From a virus: a stretch of DNA of 43,137 nt. The notes under the pieces were generated by a model. The model saw only the letters and a list, made by a program, of their open reading frames with translations, did not search any database and was not told the DNA's origin. Below are positions 3,217 to 39,026 of this stretch, piece after piece (position 1 is the first letter of the stretch; each line of letters opens with the position of its first letter). The position numbers were made by a program, and so were the translations under genes. The DNA lies in the IMG/VR virus record IMGVR_UViG_3300025853_000188, positions 1 to 43,137 of that record; one strand, given 5' to 3'.

Positions 3217-5493
3217 ATGTCAAAAGAAGATTCAAGAGAATTTCATGGATTGTCACATATAGAAGATTGGGTTAGAAAAGAATTAGAAACTCGACAAAAA
3301 AATATAGGATTATCCACTTCCCCATCGGATGTATTAAATTACGATGGCAGTTCATATAAAGGCCCAAAAATGGCATGGGCCAGATTGGTTTCTAATGCTA
3401 AAGTAACGTTTCCAGGTGACAAACAAACAGAAAAGAATGGTTTTCAATTATTTACTCAAGACGGATTTGATGCTATATATGGTTATAGACCAAACGGATC
3501 TGAGTTTAAACAAGGTATAATTGGGTACACAAAGGATGGAAAAGAACACACGTTAACGGATGAATTTAATTTACATAGACCGCCTCCTGGACTTCAATCG
3601 ATATCAACTGAAATGTTGGGTGGTAATGGTGGTAAATTTAGAAAAGCATCTGTTAAATTTTCAGTATCTTCAAAATATCAACTTGATTATATGACTCCAT
3701 TTTTTCTGGTTCCCGGAATAACATGTTTTATTGAATTTGGATGGAATAACTTTGATCCTTCTAGTTTATTAAAGTTGAATGTTCGTGGTCAAGTCAAAAA
3801 GAAGGGTCAAGAAGGAACAGGGGTATTAGGAAGATTAACTGATTATAAAAATACCCACAAAGCGCAAATGGATTCCAAAGGAAATTATAGTTGCGTGGTT
3901 GGTAGAATAAACAATTATAATTATAATTTAAGATCAGACGGTGGATTTGATGTAACGTTGGAAGTTATGCAAGTTGGCGAGGCTATATATGGATTATCTG
4001 TAGAACCTGATAGTAAAAATAAAGCCGACCCTTCTGAGTTCTCTATAAATTTATCCAAATATTTAGAAGATAATTTAGATAAAATAGCAGAAAACAACAA
4101 AGATGATCTTGGAGTTTTACCTGCTCCATTAGATACTGCTGTTAAGAAGGTTGGGAAAAATGAAATTCCATTAAAAATTGATGATCGTTATTTTTCATCT
4201 AAATATACAATAGAGGATGAGGGAAATCAATCCGCAAAAGAAGCCGATGCTAAATACATTTCATTTGGATTGCTTATTGATATAATAAACTATTATTCAG
4301 AATTAAAGACCGGGGATGATGTAATAAGCGGTTTTAAATTTGACATATCAAAAAGTTATATTTCAGCAACACCAAATTTAAAATCAATCGACCATTCGGT
4401 TATGATAATTCCTAATTCAATAGCACCATCTTTGAATTTTGACGCTGATTTAAATAAAACGTCAGATACTTCAAATTCAGAAGGAACTTCTTTACGTGAA
4501 GCTAATGACGCTTTGAAATTGGCGGTTGGTTCGTCAAAAATTTCAACAGATAGAATAGATATAACTGAATTTTTTCCATTGAAGGGTAATTGTAAGTTTC
4601 CAGAATTAACCGATTTTTCATTAGATGAAATAAAATATGGCATTGGAGGATACTGGGGAAAATTAGAGAATTTGTATATTAATATAAAAATAATTAAAAA
4701 CACAATAAAGTCATCAAAACGAATTGTCGATTTCGTTGAATCTATTTTAGAAAAAATGTCTGGTGCCGCATGTGACATTTGGGATTTTGAAATAAAAGGC
4801 AAAACCAACGGAGAAGTTGATTTAGATTGTACAATTGTAGATAATAATTTTGCTGTAGATTCGACTAGATTTAAAAACGAAACATACACATTTAATCCAT
4901 TAGCCACCAATAGTATATTAAAAAATCTAACGTTTGGGATAAATCTGCCAGATTCAGTGGCAACTCAAACTATAATGGATTCTTCTAGTTCCACAGATTC
5001 AAGAAAGGAAGCAACGTTTTTCTCTCAAATAAAAGGTCAAACCGTTAAAGTTTACGATGAGTATTTAAATGACATGGTAGTAAATGAAACGGAGGGTAAT
5101 AAAAAAAGTAAAGTAGAACCTGATAAAATATTGGCAAAGAACTTCGATAATGATTATTTTACAATAAAATCAAGCGATGGTAATATATTCAAACTAGCAG
5201 AACCAAATAAGAAATTAATGCAAAATCTCATTAATTTAGATAAAAGTCCAAATAATAATGCAATTTACAATGGCATGGTTCCCGGTGTAGAAGTTGAATT
5301 GGAACTTCTTGGAATTTCCGGTCTTAGATTTTTAAATGTATTTTCATTGGAAGGTATTCCTGATATTTACTCAAAAAATGGAGTATATCAAATAAAAAAC
5401 GTAAAGCATTCAGTATCGGATCATATATGGACAACAGTAGTTACTGCTGGATTAAGACCATTTCCAACTGTATTAGAAAAAAAGAAGGTATAA
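3217..5493 (+). CDS. Baseplate hub-like protein, 758 aa
   Basis: The N-terminal third contains SVSSKYQLDYMTPFFLVPG and CFIEFGWNNFDPSSLL, a pattern of phage hub proteins in which a strand-rich domain specifies pseudo-symmetric tail-tube packing. The C-terminus ends with GVYQIKNVKHSVSDHIWTTV and GLRPFP. That is the usual ending of the hub family of T4 gp27, P2 gpD and Mu gp44, where a last domain says how the hub interacts with the spike. Length is greater than T4 gp27 (391 aa), so extra domains are present in the middle. AAAGG just before the ATG may be the ribosome site. The gene follows the LysM gene by 5 bases, matching the P2-type order of tape measure, X, D. Hub identity is inferred from motifs plus context. 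Confidence 0.65.
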   Translation: MSKEDSREFHGLSHIEDWVRKELETRQKNIGLSTSPSDVLNYDGSSYKGPKMAWARLVSNAKVTFPGDKQTEKNGFQLFTQDGFDAIYGYRPNGSEFKQGIIGYTKDGKEHTLTDEFNLHRPPPGLQSISTEMLGGNGGKFRKASVKFSVSSKYQLDYMTPFFLVPGITCFIEFGWNNFDPSSLLKLNVRGQVKKKGQEGTGVLGRLTDYKNTHKAQMDSKGNYSCVVGRINNYNYNLRSDGGFDVTLEVMQVGEAIYGLSVEPDSKNKADPSEFSINLSKYLEDNLDKIAENNKDDLGVLPAPLDTAVKKVGKNEIPLKIDDRYFSSKYTIEDEGNQSAKEADAKYISFGLLIDIINYYSELKTGDDVISGFKFDISKSYISATPNLKSIDHSVMIIPNSIAPSLNFDADLNKTSDTSNSEGTSLREANDALKLAVGSSKISTDRIDITEFFPLKGNCKFPELTDFSLDEIKYGIGGYWGKLENLYINIKIIKNTIKSSKRIVDFVESILEKMSGAACDIWDFEIKGKTNGEVDLDCTIVDNNFAVDSTRFKNETYTFNPLATNSILKNLTFGINLPDSVATQTIMDSSSSTDSRKEATFFSQIKGQTVKVYDEYLNDMVVNETEGNKKSKVEPDKILAKNFDNDYFTIKSSDGNIFKLAEPNKKLMQNLINLDKSPNNNAIYNGMVPGVEVELELLGISGLRFLNVFSLEGIPDIYSKNGVYQIKNVKHSVSDHIWTTVVTAGLRPFPTVLEKKKV

Positions 5494-5496
5494 ATT

Positions 5497-5889
5497 ATGT
5501 CTGATGTAGTATCTGATTATAATAAAACGATAACATCTTTATCTAAATTGATGAAAAGCAAATTTCCATCAGCATTTAAATTGACCATTACGGAGGATGA
5601 TTATACTGAAGGTTTTGTGTATCGATTTTTTTGTCAGAAAATAAACACGAAGGAAATCACTGAAGTGAGCGACAGAAACTACAGAGATTTAAAGCGTTCA
5701 CCGTTATATCATTGTTTTGATGTTGAATGGAAAATTACAGGGCCTGATCGAAATATAATGAATGAAAAGGTCATTCAAAATCAAGGAGTATACGAATATA
5801 ATTCAGAAAGCATAGATGAAATTGCTAATATTGTTCCTGAAATTCGTAATTTTTTAGTTAATCCTCTTGAGTTCTGGCGAGGGTATTAA
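5497..5889 (+). CDS. Small conserved protein at the end of the tail operon
   Basis: A 130-residue protein that I do not recognise. It is soluble, with an alpha/beta pattern: an N-terminal helix (NKTITSLSKLMKSKFPSAFK), then EDDYTEGFVYRFFCQKIN, and a final helix ending NFLVNPLEFWRGY. No cysteine pairs or catalytic motif are visible. The ATG lies 3 bases after the hub stop, preceded by a good AGAAGG ribosome site in the end of the hub gene, so it is translated as the last gene of the tail operon. A baseplate or tail-assembly role is inferred from position only. The 220-base promoter and GTAC region begins directly after it. Confidence 0.55.
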   Translation: MSDVVSDYNKTITSLSKLMKSKFPSAFKLTITEDDYTEGFVYRFFCQKINTKEITEVSDRNYRDLKRSPLYHCFDVEWKITGPDRNIMNEKVIQNQGVYEYNSESIDEIANIVPEIRNFLVNPLEFWRGY

Positions 5890-13312: not shown

Positions 13313-14143
13313 ATGTCTAATAACAACGAGCGAGACACGTTAACAAAATTTGGTAGTTCATTTCAAAGTAAATGTATTGCCAGTATATTCACAGATAAAG
13401 AGTTCCTTACGCAAGTGATGGATATTGTTCATTTGGATTTCTTTGAAAATTCCGCACATAAGTGGATTTTGAATGAGATCATTGAATATTTCAAACAATA
13501 TACTGAATTGCCAACGCTTGAAGTATTCAAGCACAAGATGAAAGACATCGACAATAAGGTGTTATATGAAAGCATTGTAAATCAGTTAAGAGCGATCACA
13601 AATTCAACAACTTCTTCTGATTTGGTTTATATCAAAGAACAATTTTTGGAATTTTGCAAAAATCAAAAATTAAAATGTGCTATCATAGAAAGTGCTGATT
13701 TGCTTCAAAGTGGTGAATATGAACAAATCAAACATGTTGTGGATGAAGCTTTAAAGGCTGGAATGGAACGTGATGATGGACATGACTATTTAAACGAAAT
13801 TGATGAACGTTTAGTTGATGATGCTCGTGATACGGTAAAGACAAATTGGAAAGCCATTGATGATTTAATGGATGGTGGATTGGGCCCTGGAGAGTTAGGA
13901 GTATTTTGTGCTAGTGCGGGTGCGGGAAAATGTATAGGCCCTAATACCGAAATCGACCTTCAGTATGAAGAACTTGGAATTGAGATACAAGGTAATACCG
14001 GAAATCCTTATGTATTGTGGATTGATCCGTTTAAAGAATATGATGTATCTGGAATAGTAGATGGCGTTACTTCGTGTGTTGGTTGGCGAATATACAATGT
14101 TTTATGGGAACTTGACAATATTAGAATTAACTCCCAAACATAA
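13313..14143 (+). CDS. 41: Replicative helicase (gp41/DnaB-like) N-half fused to split-intein N-fragment
   Basis: Residues 1-206 are the N-terminal part of a DnaB/gp41-type helicase, ending inside Walker A at SAGAGK. Cys207 (codon 13931-13933) starts an intein: CIGPNTEIDLQYEE is block A, with the nucleophilic Cys at position 1. The frame stops 70 residues later, so the ATPase domain is missing here and resumes in the ORF at 15090. The last ~25 residues (from about GIVDGVTS) do not look like intein and may be junk left by the insertion. Joined to residues 137-396 of the 15090 product, the exteins give 466 aa, close to T4 gp41 (475 aa), and rebuild GAGK-S. The product unwinds DNA at the fork only after trans-splicing. 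Confidence 0.85.
   Translation: MSNNNERDTLTKFGSSFQSKCIASIFTDKEFLTQVMDIVHLDFFENSAHKWILNEIIEYFKQYTELPTLEVFKHKMKDIDNKVLYESIVNQLRAITNSTTSSDLVYIKEQFLEFCKNQKLKCAIIESADLLQSGEYEQIKHVVDEALKAGMERDDGHDYLNEIDERLVDDARDTVKTNWKAIDDLMDGGLGPGELGVFCASAGAGKCIGPNTEIDLQYEELGIEIQGNTGNPYVLWIDPFKEYDVSGIVDGVTSCVGWRIYNVLWELDNIRINSQT
13931..14143 (+). other. Split intein N-fragment in helicase Walker A
   Basis: Intein residue 1 is Cys, directly after GAGK. Block A (CIGPNTEIDL) is present, but block B (TxxH) is not. Block B lies in the partner fragment, so this intein is split earlier than the common DnaE-type site. True intein sequence probably covers the first ~40-45 of the 70 residues. Confidence 0.8.
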
Positions 14144-14166
14144 AACCAATAAAAATTATGTTTGAT

Positions 14167-14179
14167 AATATATATTGAC
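14167..14179 (+). promoter_or_regulatory. Possible late-type promoter of the homing endonuclease gene
   Basis: AATATATATT at 14167-14176, then GAC and ATG 14180. It shares the 3-base spacing and most positions of the TATATTTAT(A/T) element seen before probable late genes. Confidence 0.35.
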
Positions 14180-15118
14180 ATGGAATTATTAAAATGTAAA
14201 ATCTGTGGAATAGAACGTCGTAGTTTAGTAACTCATTTGACTAAAGTTCATAAAATAACTGGAAAACAATATAAGGAATTGTATGGTGATTGTAAATTAA
14301 TATTGGTATCCGATGAAACTAAATTGAAGCTTAGTAAGTCTAATAAACGATGGTGTTCTTCTGAGGAAAATAGAAAGAAATTATCCGAGCGTGCCAAAAA
14401 CGGAGGAAGTATATTCACTGTTAATTATTGGATTAAACGTGGATATTCATTGGAAGATGCAAAATGTAAAATTTCTGAAATACAGATTGAGAACGCGAAA
14501 AAATCAACTGACTCATTTGATAAATCAAGAAGTTGTTTCTGCGTCGATTATTGGGTTAATAAGGGATTTTCTATAGAAGAATCAAAAACGGAAGTTTCTA
14601 AATTACAAAAAGAACTAACAAAACGATCGTCGAAATTTAAAGGAAAAATTAGAACAGACGAATCAAAGATGAAAATATCAAAATCCATGACAGAACATAT
14701 TAATTCAGTTGGTGCTAGCGAATGGTCTTCTCATTTTGGTGATTTCAATGGTTCTTCTATTTTAGAAGACTCTGTATTTGACTTTGTTAATGGGAAGTTT
14801 CCTGGTGTCAAACGACATGTTGATATTTCACATTATGTAGTGGATATATTAATAGATAATATAATAATTGAGGTTAATGGTGATTTGTGGCATGCAAATC
14901 CGATTAAGTATTTAGAAAACGACATTATAAATGAGTCTATATTGAACATTACCGCTGGAGAACGATGGGAACGTGAAAAAAATAGAACTAATATATTAGA
15001 GTCGCTTGGTTATATTGTATATGTTATATGGGAACATGATTGGAAAAATAATCGTAAAAATGAAGAAAATAAAGTAATTAAATTTTTATATGAAAATAAT
15101 AGTAAAAACTGTAAATAA
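14180..15118 (+). CDS. Homing endonuclease, EDxHD / Vsr-like family, inside the fractured helicase gene
   Basis: A 312-residue free-standing endonuclease. The N-terminus has a C2H2-like zinc finger (CKICGIERRSLVTHLTKVH). Two copies of a ~40-residue repeat follow, each with a YW-x-KG(Y/F)S-x-E core (NYWIKRGYSLEDAK and DYWVNKGFSIEESK). The C-terminal nuclease domain has SILEDSVFDFV, VDISHYVVDIL, IIEVNGDLWHANP and GYIVYVIWEHDWKNN, the acidic/His signature of the Vsr-like EDxHD family. That family was described from fractured genes with split inteins. It would cut intein-less helicase genes so that the whole cassette spreads by repair. ATG 14180 is chosen over an upstream TTG. Its end overlaps the next ORF by 29 bases. 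Confidence 0.85.
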   Translation: MELLKCKICGIERRSLVTHLTKVHKITGKQYKELYGDCKLILVSDETKLKLSKSNKRWCSSEENRKKLSERAKNGGSIFTVNYWIKRGYSLEDAKCKISEIQIENAKKSTDSFDKSRSCFCVDYWVNKGFSIEESKTEVSKLQKELTKRSSKFKGKIRTDESKMKISKSMTEHINSVGASEWSSHFGDFNGSSILEDSVFDFVNGKFPGVKRHVDISHYVVDILIDNIIIEVNGDLWHANPIKYLENDIINESILNITAGERWEREKNRTNILESLGYIVYVIWEHDWKNNRKNEENKVIKFLYENNSKNCK

Positions 15119-16280
15119 AAAAGTAAAAATAAAAGATATATTTGATGGGGTTGGCATTCCTAATGAGGAACATGCTTCAAAAGCGCCACCAATAAACTTA
15201 CGGGTAAAGACTCCATATGGTTATAAACGTATAGCAAATATGTTCAGAACTGAGCGTCAGAAAACCGTCACTACTTACTTCGGAAACAACAAAACTTTAA
15301 AAACGTCAGATAACCATAGGATAAAATCAAATGGCGATTGGGTATATGTTAAAGATTTGCGAGTTGGTCAAAAAGTTGAAACATTAAGCGACAACACTAA
15401 AGTAATAAAGAAAATAACAGGAAGAGAAGAAATTTTATATGATATTAGTGTAGAAGATGTTCATTGTTATTATTCAAATGGAATATTGAGTCATAATTCT
15501 TGGTGTTTAAACAAGGTTGGAGTTGAAGCGTTAAAGCAAGGAAAAAACGTGGTTCACTTCACAATGGAACTTCAACAAAAATATGTTGGTAGACGATATG
15601 ATTGTTGTTTTACTGGAGTTGACTTTCAAAACATCGTAAGTCACAAAGAACAAGTATATCAAGAATTGAAAAATATAAATTCGTGGTTAAAAATAAAATA
15701 CTTTCCGATCAAAACTGTATCAGCGTTATCTTTAAAAAATTACATTGAACGTATTCAGATGTTGAGTGGTGAAAAAGTAGATTTGATGATCGTGGATTAT
15801 GCTGACATTTTAAAACCTGTTGCTGCTGAACGAAACAGCAATTCATATAGTGAAGCTGGAGGAATTTATGAAGAATTACGTGGGGTTGCTGGAGAGTTAC
15901 AAATTCCATGTTGGACAGCGTCACAAACGAATCGCGGTTCCGCTTCTGAGGATGTTATTGAAGCCGGTAGTATATCAGATAGTTTCAGAAAAATTATGAC
16001 CGCTGATTTCGTAATGAGTATATCTCGCAAGACAGAGGATAAATTACAAAATACAGCAAGAGCACACGTTATAAAAAACAGATTTGGTGCGGACGGTTGT
16101 ACATTCAACAGTTTTTTTGATGCTTCATGTGGTAATATAAACATCTATGATAGAAATGATCCTGAAAGCGCTAAGTTACAATCAAAAATGTCGGATGGTG
16201 AAAATGCTGCTAAGCGCAGAGTTCAAGATATATGGAACAACACGAAGGATGATTCTTCCGATGGTTTGGATTTAGGATAA
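15090..16280 (+). CDS. 41: Split-intein C-fragment fused to replicative helicase C-half
   Basis: Residues 1-136 are the intein C-fragment: LKTSDNHRIKSNGDW is block B with its His, ILYDISVEDVHCYY is block F, and NGILSHN is block G. Ser137 (codon 15498-15500) is the +1 residue of the C-extein. Residues 137-396 are the RecA-fold ATPase of gp41/DnaB, with HFTMELQQKYVGRR, the Walker B region DLMIVDYADILKP and PCWTASQTNRGS. The C-terminus is acidic. Splicing with the 13313 product recreates GAGKS. This fragment holds ~136 intein residues, an unusually large C-part. The first few residues are encoded within the end of the endonuclease gene, so translation is coupled or starts internally. Confidence 0.85.
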   Translation: MKIIVKTVNKKVKIKDIFDGVGIPNEEHASKAPPINLRVKTPYGYKRIANMFRTERQKTVTTYFGNNKTLKTSDNHRIKSNGDWVYVKDLRVGQKVETLSDNTKVIKKITGREEILYDISVEDVHCYYSNGILSHNSWCLNKVGVEALKQGKNVVHFTMELQQKYVGRRYDCCFTGVDFQNIVSHKEQVYQELKNINSWLKIKYFPIKTVSALSLKNYIERIQMLSGEKVDLMIVDYADILKPVAAERNSNSYSEAGGIYEELRGVAGELQIPCWTASQTNRGSASEDVIEAGSISDSFRKIMTADFVMSISRKTEDKLQNTARAHVIKNRFGADGCTFNSFFDASCGNINIYDRNDPESAKLQSKMSDGENAAKRRVQDIWNNTKDDSSDGLDLG

Positions 16281-16767: not shown

Positions 16768-17180
16768 GTGATTCCAAAAGAGTTTTCAGTGTCACGTGTA
16801 TTGACGATGATCCTAATACGATAGAATTAATGACGTTAATTTGTTCTCGACGAACTGACATTAAATTAACAACATTTATAAATCCTGTTAAAGCATACTC
16901 TGCACTAAAACATTTAATAGATAATAATAATAGTCCTGATATTGTTGTTATCGATCGAAAGATGCCCTATCTTCCGGGAGAACAATTAAATGTGATGTTA
17001 AAGCACTTAGATCCTGATTTATTTTCCGTATTATACACATCGGAAAATAACAATACCATATTGAAATATGATAAGAGTATCTATAAGTTTGATCATACTT
17101 ATATTAAGTGTGGAAGGATGATGATTAATGAAATAATAGACGATATTATAAAAAATAAGTTGACAAAAGAGAATGCATAA
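16764..17180 (+). CDS. Stand-alone response-regulator receiver (CheY-like) protein
   Basis: The 138-residue protein shows the full REC residue set. TCIDDDPNTIEL near residues 11-22 gives the acidic pocket. DIVVIDRKMPYLPGEQL near 59-75 carries the phospho-acceptor Asp (VVIDRKMP). VLYTSENN near 90-97 gives the switch Thr/Ser, and YIKCGR near 113-118 gives the conserved Lys. No output domain is attached. In bacteria such proteins receive phosphate from a sensor kinase and work by protein contact. It overlaps the membrane coiled-coil gene by 4 bases, so the pair may act together. Whether it intercepts host two-component signalling or serves in the virion is unknown. Confidence 0.75.
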   Translation: MSDSKRVFSVTCIDDDPNTIELMTLICSRRTDIKLTTFINPVKAYSALKHLIDNNNSPDIVVIDRKMPYLPGEQLNVMLKHLDPDLFSVLYTSENNNTILKYDKSIYKFDHTYIKCGRMMINEIIDDIIKNKLTKENA

Positions 17181-36604: not shown

Positions 36605-37270
36605 ATGTTTTTTGAGACAGACAACGAAGAATCTAAAACTAATGATGTGTATATTTGGGCGGAAAAATACCGTCCAAATAATTTAGACGAATATCTTGGG
36701 AACGAACAAATCAAGAATAGTGTATCGACTTACATTGAAACCGGAGAGATACCACATTTATTGTTTTATTCAAAGAAGCCAGGCACAGGAAAAACTACTG
36801 TAGCAAAAATGATTGCTAAGTCTATTCCTAGTGACGTAATGTATATTAATGCTTCCGATGAACGTAAACTTGATGACATTCGTGACAAGGTAAAGTCTTT
36901 TGCGTCTTCACTTGGATTCCAAAAATTGAAAATCTTAATTCTGGATGAGTGTTTAGACGAAAACACGTTAGTTACAGTATTACGTGATGGTGAATATAAA
37001 AAGATTCAAATTTGTGAATTAAATGATTCATCTGATTTGGTAAAATCTTATAACTTTGATAAAAATTTAGTTGAATGGACTCCGTTTTCTTTGATGGATA
37101 AGGGTGATCGGGAAACATATGAGATTGAATTTGAGAATGGTGAAAAGATTGTTTGTACAGATAATCACAAATGGTATGTTGAAATTGACGGTGATGTTGT
37201 AAGAAAACCACTATCATTTATAATTGAAAATGAAATTTCTGAAATAATTTCACCGAATATGATAGAATGA
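36605..37270 (+). CDS. 44: Clamp loader large subunit (gp44-like) N-half fused to split-intein N-fragment
   Basis: Residues 1-115 are the N-terminal AAA+ part of a gp44/RFC-small-subunit-type clamp loader: WAEKYRPNNLDEYLGNEQIK, the Walker A PGTGKTTVAK and the Walker B LKILILDE. Cys116 (codon 36950-36952) directly follows DE and starts an intein: CLDENTLVTVL (block A), then CTDNHKWYV (block B). The frame stops after 106 intein residues. The rest of the ATPase is at 38249. Together the exteins are 115+201 = 316 aa, close to T4 gp44 (319 aa). The loader places the clamp on DNA; it can do so only after trans-splicing. No ribosome site is seen before the ATG, which lies 3 bases after the ClpP stop. 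Confidence 0.85.
   Translation: MFFETDNEESKTNDVYIWAEKYRPNNLDEYLGNEQIKNSVSTYIETGEIPHLLFYSKKPGTGKTTVAKMIAKSIPSDVMYINASDERKLDDIRDKVKSFASSLGFQKLKILILDECLDENTLVTVLRDGEYKKIQICELNDSSDLVKSYNFDKNLVEWTPFSLMDKGDRETYEIEFENGEKIVCTDNHKWYVEIDGDVVRKPLSFIIENEISEIISPNMIE
36950..37270 (+). other. Split intein N-fragment in clamp-loader Walker B
   Basis: It runs from Cys1 through block B (T-D-N-H) to a stop. The C-fragment is only 38 residues (38249-38362). The break therefore lies near the common split-intein position, between blocks B and F. Host residues flanking the insertion are LDE and CDN. Confidence 0.85.
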
Positions 37271-37304
37271 CATCCAAATCCCAAAATATATTATATATAT
37301 TTAT

Positions 37305-38252
37305 ATGGGATCAAAAAATAGATATAATAGGCGTCATTTTACCGATGATGAAATTCAAAGTTTGTTTGTTGAATGTATGGAAAATGGAGAGTTATATTCT
37401 CCATTTTCCAAAAAATTATTTGATACAACATATAAGTGGAGAAATGATATTATACGGAATATGGATGTTGAATCATGTAATAAATTTCTATTTAAATTTG
37501 AAGATGTGCGATATTGTAAATATTCCGGTGAAGTTCTAACCGAAACAGAATACTCATATTCTGAACGATATAAAGGATATAAGGGATTTAAAAAATATAA
37601 ATTAAAATATATAGAAATGGGAATATGGAGAAACCGAAAAAAATCAAATCAAGAACGTGAAAAAATAAGTAAAAATATAAAGAAGTATTATTCAACTGAA
37701 GAAGGGAAACTTCGTGCTAAATTAACAGGTGAAAATAATTCAAAAAAATTGAAGGAATATTTTAAAACTGATAAAGGCATTCAACAAATAAAAGAAGTTG
37801 GAAAAAAACAATCCGAGTTGATGAAGGAAAAAATAAAAAATGGGGAATTTACCCCAAATATTACTAATTCATGGACTCACTGGAAAGCTATAATAAAAAT
37901 AGAAAATATTGAACATAAATTCAGAAGTTCGTGGGAAGCCTGTTTCTTTTTATGTAATGATTACTTAAAATATGAATATCTTAGAATTCCTTATGTGGAT
38001 GAAAACGGTATAAATAGAACTTATGTAGGTGATTTTTATGATTGTAATGCAAACATTCTATATGAAATAAAACCTGTGTGTGAATATAATAAACAAAAAA
38101 CTAAAATATCATCTGCTATAGATTATTGTATTATTAATGGTATAAAATTTATTTGGATTAATGAAAATAACATATTAAAATACATTGACATTTCTAAATT
38201 TGATGATTATAATATGATACAATATAATAAAATGATTAAAGGAATAAAATGA
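37305..38252 (+). CDS. Homing endonuclease, PD-(D/E)xK-like, inside the fractured clamp-loader gene
   Basis: A 315-residue free-standing gene between the intein halves. The N-terminus is basic with possible DNA-contact helices (NRYNRRHFTDDEIQSLFVEC), then Lys-rich helical repeats (REKISKNIKKYYSTEEGK, ENNSKKLKEYFKTDKG) like NUMOD-type elements. The C-terminal domain has SSWEACFFL, YVGDFYD and ILYEIKP. This is the E...D...ExK arrangement of a PD-(D/E)xK nuclease. It is thus a different family from the EDxHD enzyme at 14180. Its stop overlaps the start of the clamp-loader C-half (ATGA). A TATATTTATA-like string ends at its ATG, without the usual 3-base gap. Confidence 0.7.
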   Translation: MGSKNRYNRRHFTDDEIQSLFVECMENGELYSPFSKKLFDTTYKWRNDIIRNMDVESCNKFLFKFEDVRYCKYSGEVLTETEYSYSERYKGYKGFKKYKLKYIEMGIWRNRKKSNQEREKISKNIKKYYSTEEGKLRAKLTGENNSKKLKEYFKTDKGIQQIKEVGKKQSELMKEKIKNGEFTPNITNSWTHWKAIIKIENIEHKFRSSWEACFFLCNDYLKYEYLRIPYVDENGINRTYVGDFYDCNANILYEIKPVCEYNKQKTKISSAIDYCIINGIKFIWINENNILKYIDISKFDDYNMIQYNKMIKGIK

Positions 38253-38968
38253 AATTGAAAATTAAGTCTATAACTCCGGTTGGAAAGCGTCATGTATATG
38301 ACTTGAACGTTCCCGGAAATCATAACTTTTATGTGGGAAACTCTGAAGTATTGACTTCAAATTGTGATAATATCACTCCTGACGGTCAAAAGGCTTTACG
38401 TAATATAATGGAGACATACAGCGGCCATTGTCGTTTTATATTGACATGTAATTATTATGAGAAGTTAATTGAACCGTTGGTATCGAGATGTCAGGTGTTT
38501 CATGTTCAGCCGCCTAAGAAAGCTGAGGTTGCTAAACATGTCGCTGGTATCCTTGATAATGAAAACATTAATTATAATGTCGAAGACTTTAAGGTATTGA
38601 TCAAATATTATCCTGATATTAGACGTATCATTCAGACTGCTCAACAAAACTCCATTAGCGGAACATTAAAAATTAATGAAGCACAAGTTGTCGAAAATGA
38701 CGCTAATATTAAATTGTTGGAAATTTTGAAAACGCAATCAAATAAAAAAGATTGCATTCGGAGTATTCGACAATTATTAGCGGATAATGGAGTAGCAGAC
38801 TATACGGAATATTTTGACTATTTATTTGAGAATGTTGACGAGTTTGCTAAAAACTCTACTGCTAATGTAATTTTAACACTAGCAGATTATCAATATAAAG
38901 ATGCTTTTGTAGCGAATAAAGAGATTAATTTCGCTGCATGTATGATTGAGGTTGTTAAGCACCTTTAG
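38249..38968 (+). CDS. 44: Split-intein C-fragment fused to clamp loader C-half
   Basis: Residues 1-38 are the intein C-part: HVYDLNVPGNHNFYVGN is block F, and EVLTSN ends with the splice Asn38, here preceded by Ser and not by the usual His. Cys39 (codon 38363-38365) is the +1 residue. Residues 39-239 continue the AAA+ clamp loader: DNITPDGQKALRNIMETYSG, FILTCNYYEKLIEPLVSRCQ (sensor 1 and the SRC arginine finger of clamp loaders), PDIRRIIQTAQ (sensor 2), then a C-terminal helical collar. Joined to the 36605 product, this rebuilds Walker B LDE-CDN. The start overlaps the endonuclease stop. Confidence 0.85.
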   Translation: MKLKIKSITPVGKRHVYDLNVPGNHNFYVGNSEVLTSNCDNITPDGQKALRNIMETYSGHCRFILTCNYYEKLIEPLVSRCQVFHVQPPKKAEVAKHVAGILDNENINYNVEDFKVLIKYYPDIRRIIQTAQQNSISGTLKINEAQVVENDANIKLLEILKTQSNKKDCIRSIRQLLADNGVADYTEYFDYLFENVDEFAKNSTANVILTLADYQYKDAFVANKEINFAACMIEVVKHL

Positions 38969-38993: not shown

Positions 38994-39026
38994 AAACCCC
39001 GTGTCATAAACGACATGGGGTTTTTC
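38994..39026 (+). terminator. Rho-independent terminator after the clamp loader
   Basis: AAACCCCGTGTC (38994-39005) pairs with GACATGGGGTTT (39012-39023) with one wobble, around a 6-base loop, and continues into TT. Confidence 0.88.

Follow-up and report, generated by a model that had tools for sequence, protein, structure and literature searches.

The whole stretch of DNA analyzed here, hereafter the window, is a virus record of 43,137 bp (IMG/VR record IMGVR_UViG_3300025853_000188), a fragment of a phage genome. At 36605-38968 it carries a gp44-like clamp-loader gene that is spread over three open reading frames (ORFs), with the break directly after the Walker B motif (ILDE|C), and this split gene, with its intein parts and an inserted endonuclease gene, was confirmed at these coordinates. 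It is highly probable that the two halves are joined by protein trans-splicing, and that the insert encodes a homing endonuclease which was later lost repeatedly. An earlier note, made from the letters of the window, had proposed a clamp loader fractured by a split intein, a reading that was supported overall; beyond it, the same site was found at 51 loci, the endonuclease family was found at the Walker B motifs of other ATPases, and all stages of endonuclease loss were observed.

The split clamp-loader gene and its intein

The features of the locus are as follows.

36605-37270, + strand: N-half ORF, comprising a 115-aa N-extein and a 106-aa N-terminal intein part (IntN)
36605-36949, + strand: N-extein, gp44-like residues 1-115, from the P-loop GTGKT to Walker B ILDE; phrog_168, 1.1e-34
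36950-37270, + strand: IntN, 106 aa, beginning CLDENTLV, with Cys1, block B TDNH and the stop codon TGA
37305-38252, + strand: putative homing endonuclease, TnsA-like PD-(D/E)xK, 315 aa; PF08722, 7.7e-5
38249-38968, + strand: C-half ORF, comprising the C-terminal intein part (IntC) and the C-extein
38249-38362, + strand: IntC, 38 aa, its ATG overlapping the endonuclease stop (ATGA) and its end reading LTSN
38363-38968, + strand: C-extein, Cys+1 and the remaining AAA+ clamp loader, 201 aa, to the stop; phrog_168, 1.4e-41

A gap of 34 nt separates the end of the N-half from the endonuclease start. On the 314 positions of the PHROG family phrog_168, the N-half covered 6-109 and the C-half 109-307, which are complementary stretches, and the joined exteins (115 + 201 = 316 aa) form a full-length AAA+ clamp-loader chain of the T4 gp44 type. 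The interruption at Walker B (LDE) and the extein sum of 316 aa given in the earlier note were thus both borne out. Chance is ruled out by the complementary phrog_168 matches, together with the Pfam Intein_splicing matches of both intein parts (3e-4 and 1e-3, below the gathering score) and the 51 distinct phage loci in which this intein occupies the identical codon. A 90-aa ORF at 37267-37539 was rejected because it has no family match and its frame differs from that of the endonuclease. Long alignments of the N-half to intein-free cyanophage gp44, which ran into the intein region, were rejected as spurious extensions, since the C-half matches overlap the same DNA.

The intein parts of the window bear the marks of a class 1 Cys intein, namely Cys1, the block B TxxH motif (TDNH), Asn38, and Cys+1, and they lie in separate reading frames, each joined to its own extein half, as in a naturally split intein. 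The 106-residue IntN with Cys1 and TxxH, and the 38-residue IntC ending in TSN before a Cys (38363), were therefore recovered as previously read. Cys1 was present in 60 of 60 tabulated loci and Cys+1 in 59 of 59. The two halves might also simply assemble non-covalently, the HINT parts being merely dimerisation tags, and a phage NrdA that an endonuclease gene reportedly divides offers a parallel for pieces that work without splicing; however, no tabulated locus has lost Cys1, Asn, or Cys+1, and splicing is the only way in which contiguous members of the family could restore gp44, which makes such an assembly very improbable.

In a comparison of the family profile with the PDB, the NrdJ-1, Npu DnaE, and gp41-1 split inteins were among the best matches. 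Structure models were made only of unaltered sequences. A contiguous relative, L100, was modelled as a HINT domain with a predicted local distance difference test score (pLDDT) of 96.1 and a predicted template modelling score (pTM) of 0.88, and the folds closest to this model were the NpuDnaB, NpuDnaE, NrdJ-1, and gp41-1 inteins. The intein halves of the window were 49% and 54% identical to L100, so that, by the L100 model and this alignment, they are predicted to form a HINT fold as well.

In close pairs with both rates estimable, the ratio of nonsynonymous to synonymous substitution rates (dN/dS) was ≤0.31 for exteins, intein parts, and endonuclease, except for one value of 0.42 at low divergence, pointing to purifying selection on all of them. 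In addition, ten relatives' records of 55-462 kb, in which the gp44 intein is split, or contiguous in one, held no second strong gp44 match, the intein-bearing gene standing alone. These data bear on the alternative that a free-standing endonuclease simply broke the gene, its fragments now decaying while another ATPase substitutes. The endonuclease genes of two relatives, L152 and L261, are indeed frameshifted or decayed, and the 43 kb of the window are all that is known of its genome; but both halves are open with all catalytic residues kept, the relatives show purifying selection, the ten larger records lack a second strong gp44, and the L261 halves are intact despite the decay of their endonuclease. 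A broken and decaying gene is accordingly very improbable.

In the mechanism proposed, the phage would make gp44 in the form of two polypeptides; neither is expected to work by itself, as the break behind the Walker B Glu divides the AAA+ ATPase site. IntN and IntC would associate into one HINT domain, and trans-splicing through Cys1, Cys+1, and Asn cyclisation, with Ser as the penultimate residue, would yield a seamless 316-aa gp44; the penultimate residue of Npu DnaE is likewise Ser. During mixed infection, the endonuclease would cut gp44 alleles without the cassette and be copied into them along with the split intein. With an intein that is split to begin with, deletion of the endonuclease need not break gp44; such deletions have occurred many times and have given rise to naturally split inteins that can later be re-fused.

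Recurrence of the cassette at one codon and loss of its endonuclease

Other clamp-loader genes with the same insertion point, for which the earlier note had advised a search, were found. IntN at gp44 LDE|C was detected in IMG/VR at 37 loci in a first scan and at 71 with an alignment, and the distinct gp44 inteins of metagenomic phages with precisely this position numbered 51; none of the isolate phages searched had this gp44 intein. In intein-free gp44 (61 distinct), the residue after DE was Ala in 59 and otherwise Phe or Ser, in contrast to the Cys of intein-bearing genes, indicating that Cys+1 either moves together with the intein or is a mark of permissive alleles. The intein was more conserved than the extein in 96% of 666 pairs (58 vs. 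45% identity), as would be expected of a mobile cassette.

Three states occurred among the 51 loci: 41 were split with an endonuclease-sized insert, the open frame of which was checked in part of them, L153 having a frameshifted endonuclease gene; 5 were split and had either no endonuclease any more or a decayed one; and 5 were contiguous. In the tree, the five contiguous and five endonuclease-poor split inteins were scattered, giving ten state changes with well-supported branches throughout, and each endonuclease loss or fusion was apparently independent.

Scars of the endonuclease 3′-end were found in all five endonuclease-poor split loci and in the contiguous L100. L110 still has, between its halves, the final codons of the endonuclease gene seen in its sister L112; L118 and L084 keep endonuclease tails; about 38 endonuclease residues are left in L109; L261 has a decayed endonuclease gene between two intact gp44 halves; and in L100 the endonuclease-tail sequence is read through as a linker. 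The contiguous L083 retains a Met at the IntC start position. These scars indicated that endonuclease deletion came first, before the split form without endonuclease and, in L100 at least, before re-fusion; a split thus persists after its endonuclease is gone and can later be re-fused. The opposite polarity, in which a contiguous ancestor without endonuclease received endonuclease insertions many times at one place, would agree with the contiguous L083 and L114, where no recognisable endonuclease scar was found. However, the scars in the other six loci, the nesting of contiguous forms beside split ones, and the presence of the cassette in 41 of 51 loci make this order of events very unlikely in our judgement.

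Several points weigh against trans-splicing, homing, and later loss as the reading of the window. The window lacks the penultimate His of inteins (LTSN), as do a minority of its relatives (among 41 gp44 loci, IntC ends in HN in 34, SN in 6, and GN in 1); this His is usual but not essential, and the active DnaE split inteins have another residue there. The HINT model is that of L100 rather than of the window's own two halves together, and an intact gp44 could lie elsewhere in a genome of which only a fragment is known. A slower evolution of the intein may also account for the contrast of 58 vs. 45%, which is no proof of transfer.

Some divergent or additional gp44 inteins were also observed. 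L134, from a 462-kb phage record, and L198 have divergent gp44 inteins of a different clade at the same Walker B site. A second gp44 intein lies at the P-loop (GK|T) in L152 (1134-5685) and also in L109, L115, L140, and L154; in L152, the gp44 gene is divided into three parts, an HNH-like ORF lying at the P-loop and an FkbM methyltransferase gene (PF05050, 2.5e-7) plus a frameshifted TnsA-like nuclease in the Walker B gap. A scan of genome contigs with the IntN alignment gave one match, L291, a Walker B gp44 cassette on a contig binned as Nitrosarchaeum, an archaeal metagenome-assembled genome; a neighbouring gene resembles T4 RegA by eye, and the contig is probably that of a mis-binned phage, or else of a virus of the archaeon.

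The endonuclease family at Walker B motifs

In an alignment of 39 rows, R207, W210, D243, F244, E254, and K256 of the window endonuclease were invariant and E211 was at least 90% conserved; the codons of the active site are at 37935 (E211), 38031 (D243), 38064 (E254), and 38070 (K256). Its AlphaFold2 model had a pLDDT of 92.6, and the best fold match was TnsA (1t0f; probability 1.00, E 0.02). The PF08722 score of the window (23.6) lies below the cut-off of 26.5, which is exceeded by the relatives L166 (36.3) and L198 (33.5), and no significant match was obtained when PDB sequences were searched with a profile of the endonuclease. A TnsA-like PD-(D/E)xK nuclease was thus confirmed by the conserved E..DF..ExK site and the predicted fold, in line with the earlier assignment to PD-(D/E)xK rather than to EDxHD, and its sporadic distribution and the higher conservation of intein over extein are indirect hints of a possible role in homing.

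The window's first fractured gene, a gp41-like helicase at 13313-16280, is split at the P-loop (GK|S) by an intein of atypical split, with a short IntN of up to ~69 aa and block B in the C-half. For the nuclease of this cassette, the match is to PF18741 MTES_1575 and not to the TnsA-like PF08722. The differences in insertion site, split, and nuclease agree with the previous claim that the two cassettes are of separate origin.

Further, members of the same endonuclease family were found between split inteins with Cys1 and Cys+1 after the Walker B 'DE' of genes other than gp44, encoding UvsW-like, DinG-like, and other superfamily 2 (SF2) helicases, TerL, and PhoH. Cultured examples are E. coli HY03 and Yersinia TG1 (TerL), Proteus PM2 (UvsW), and Campylobacter CPt10 (PhoH), and in E. 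coli phiS the endonuclease is fused to the TerL N-half. TerL DE|C inteins with this family also occur in L136, L177, L195, L196, L199, and L203, with an IntN of 32-41 aa. TerL inteins have this short-IntN split while those of the other genes are canonical, that is, the position of the endonuclease within the intein varies, but the exon site is constant. In L166 (3770-5544), the endonuclease is a free-standing gene immediately 5′ of an unbroken gp44 that has no intein and reads DEF, a possible case of collaborative homing or a remnant.

The gp44 endonuclease of L198 grouped among the UvsW ones (bootstraps 98/96), while gene-wise clades, whether of inteins or of endonucleases, were not rejected by approximately unbiased (AU) tests (p 0.18-0.44); hopping between genes is therefore kept as a hypothesis, though bootstraps favor it. 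We tentatively propose, as a possibility somewhat short of an even chance, that one TnsA-like lineage specialised on 'hhDE-C' DNA and hopped among unrelated ATPase genes by way of different resident inteins, the motif being its niche, and that later endonuclease loss repeatedly yielded naturally split and re-fused inteins. For this cross-gene part, it is close to evenly balanced whether the sharing of Walker B is instead convergence, with an endonuclease family that follows inteins and does no targeting of its own. Few conserved motifs offer a nucleophile as DE|C does, the portal-like L195 intein, with another nuclease, is also at ADE|C, and the AU tests leave gene-wise clades standing. In contrast, the examined family members are all at Walker B except that of L166, which is beside an unbroken gp44, and different nucleases accompany the split inteins of other sites (HNH in NrdA, GIY-YIG-like in UvsX). 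The L195 intein (4003-5748) is contiguous, has an HNH-like nuclease, and lies in an apparent phage portal gene.

Relation to known systems and candidate promoters

Fractured genes, in which a split intein breaks a phage DNA-metabolism gene and a free-standing endonuclease lies between the halves, have reportedly been described, and an EDxHD Vsr-like endonuclease is said to occur in half of the published loci. The clamp-loader locus is a known arrangement of this kind, with an endonuclease gene between the split-intein halves of one host gene and an apparent control element inside the insert; the gene, the site, the endonuclease type, and the record of loss are new. In place of the Vsr-related EDxHD type, it has a TnsA-like PD-(D/E)xK nuclease at the Walker B of a clamp loader, and its family includes endonuclease-lost loci and re-fused loci with scars. 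The site had been called undescribed in the earlier note, in agreement with the literature searched, which did not cover the tables of Dassa et al. (2009) and in which no split intein in a phage clamp loader was described.

With the Npu/Ssp DnaE inteins, the gp44 inteins share the split position (~100 + ~36 aa), Cys1, Cys+1, and IntC type, as well as the profile and fold match, but DnaE is a gene of the host, with distant halves and without endonuclease, whereas the gp44 halves flank an endonuclease in one locus. NrdJ-1 and gp41-1 are also split inteins from metagenomic fractured genes, of other host genes and sites. AceL-TerL itself is presumably at DE|C. The AceL-TerL and GOS-TerL atypical split inteins of TerL (PMC11766414) have a short IntN and a long IntC; in the TerL inteins with the window's endonuclease family, the endonuclease sits elsewhere in the intein than in gp44. 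PhoH inteins were noted earlier in Campylobacter phages (PMC3322345), which in the part consulted does not present them as a Walker B cassette; the CPt10 insert has the window's endonuclease family at DE|C in this different gene. The N-terminal catalytic domain of Tn7 TnsA is the nearest solved fold and Pfam family of the endonuclease, which here is a free gene inside inteins with no transposase partner seen.

The origin and fate of naturally split inteins are an open question, for which fractured genes have been proposed as the missing link, and the gp44 family offers the split form with endonuclease, the split form with an endonuclease fossil, and the re-fused form side by side in one gene and at one codon. 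In at least five ATPase families, among them the TerL of cultured coliphages, the Walker B motif is linked to one and the same endonuclease family, so that homing directed by a motif can be tested directly. The inteins, including variants without penultimate His, are also new candidates for protein trans-splicing tools.

Two candidate control elements accompany the C-half.

38185-38213, + strand: sigma-70 promoter TTGACA-17-TATAAT, 12/12, within the 3′ end of the endonuclease gene; the C-half starts 36 nt further on
38994-39023, + strand: terminator-like hairpin 3′ of the C-half; the region has 5 such sites vs. 0.5 expected

None of 3000 simulated 150-nt stretches reached 12/12, and the internal candidate promoter could drive the C-half. 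Upstream of the C-half, 12/12 sites were also present in L138, L144, and L154 and 11/12 sites in L139, L149, and L150, but the remaining 27 gp44 split loci tested scored 7-10, so the element is not universal.

Elsewhere in the record, T4-like genes for DNA polymerase, RIIA, UvsX, and a DnaB-like helicase were found, and the isolate phage collection gave no nucleotide match to its last 13 kb. The whole window has five perfect sigma-70 sites, all on the coding strand, compared with none in eight Markov simulations. Perfect or 11/12 promoters at 17160, 25428, 31499, and 39049 end 7-8 nt before the start codons of long ORFs (17196, 25464, 31534, and 39084), and these genes are apparently leaderless.
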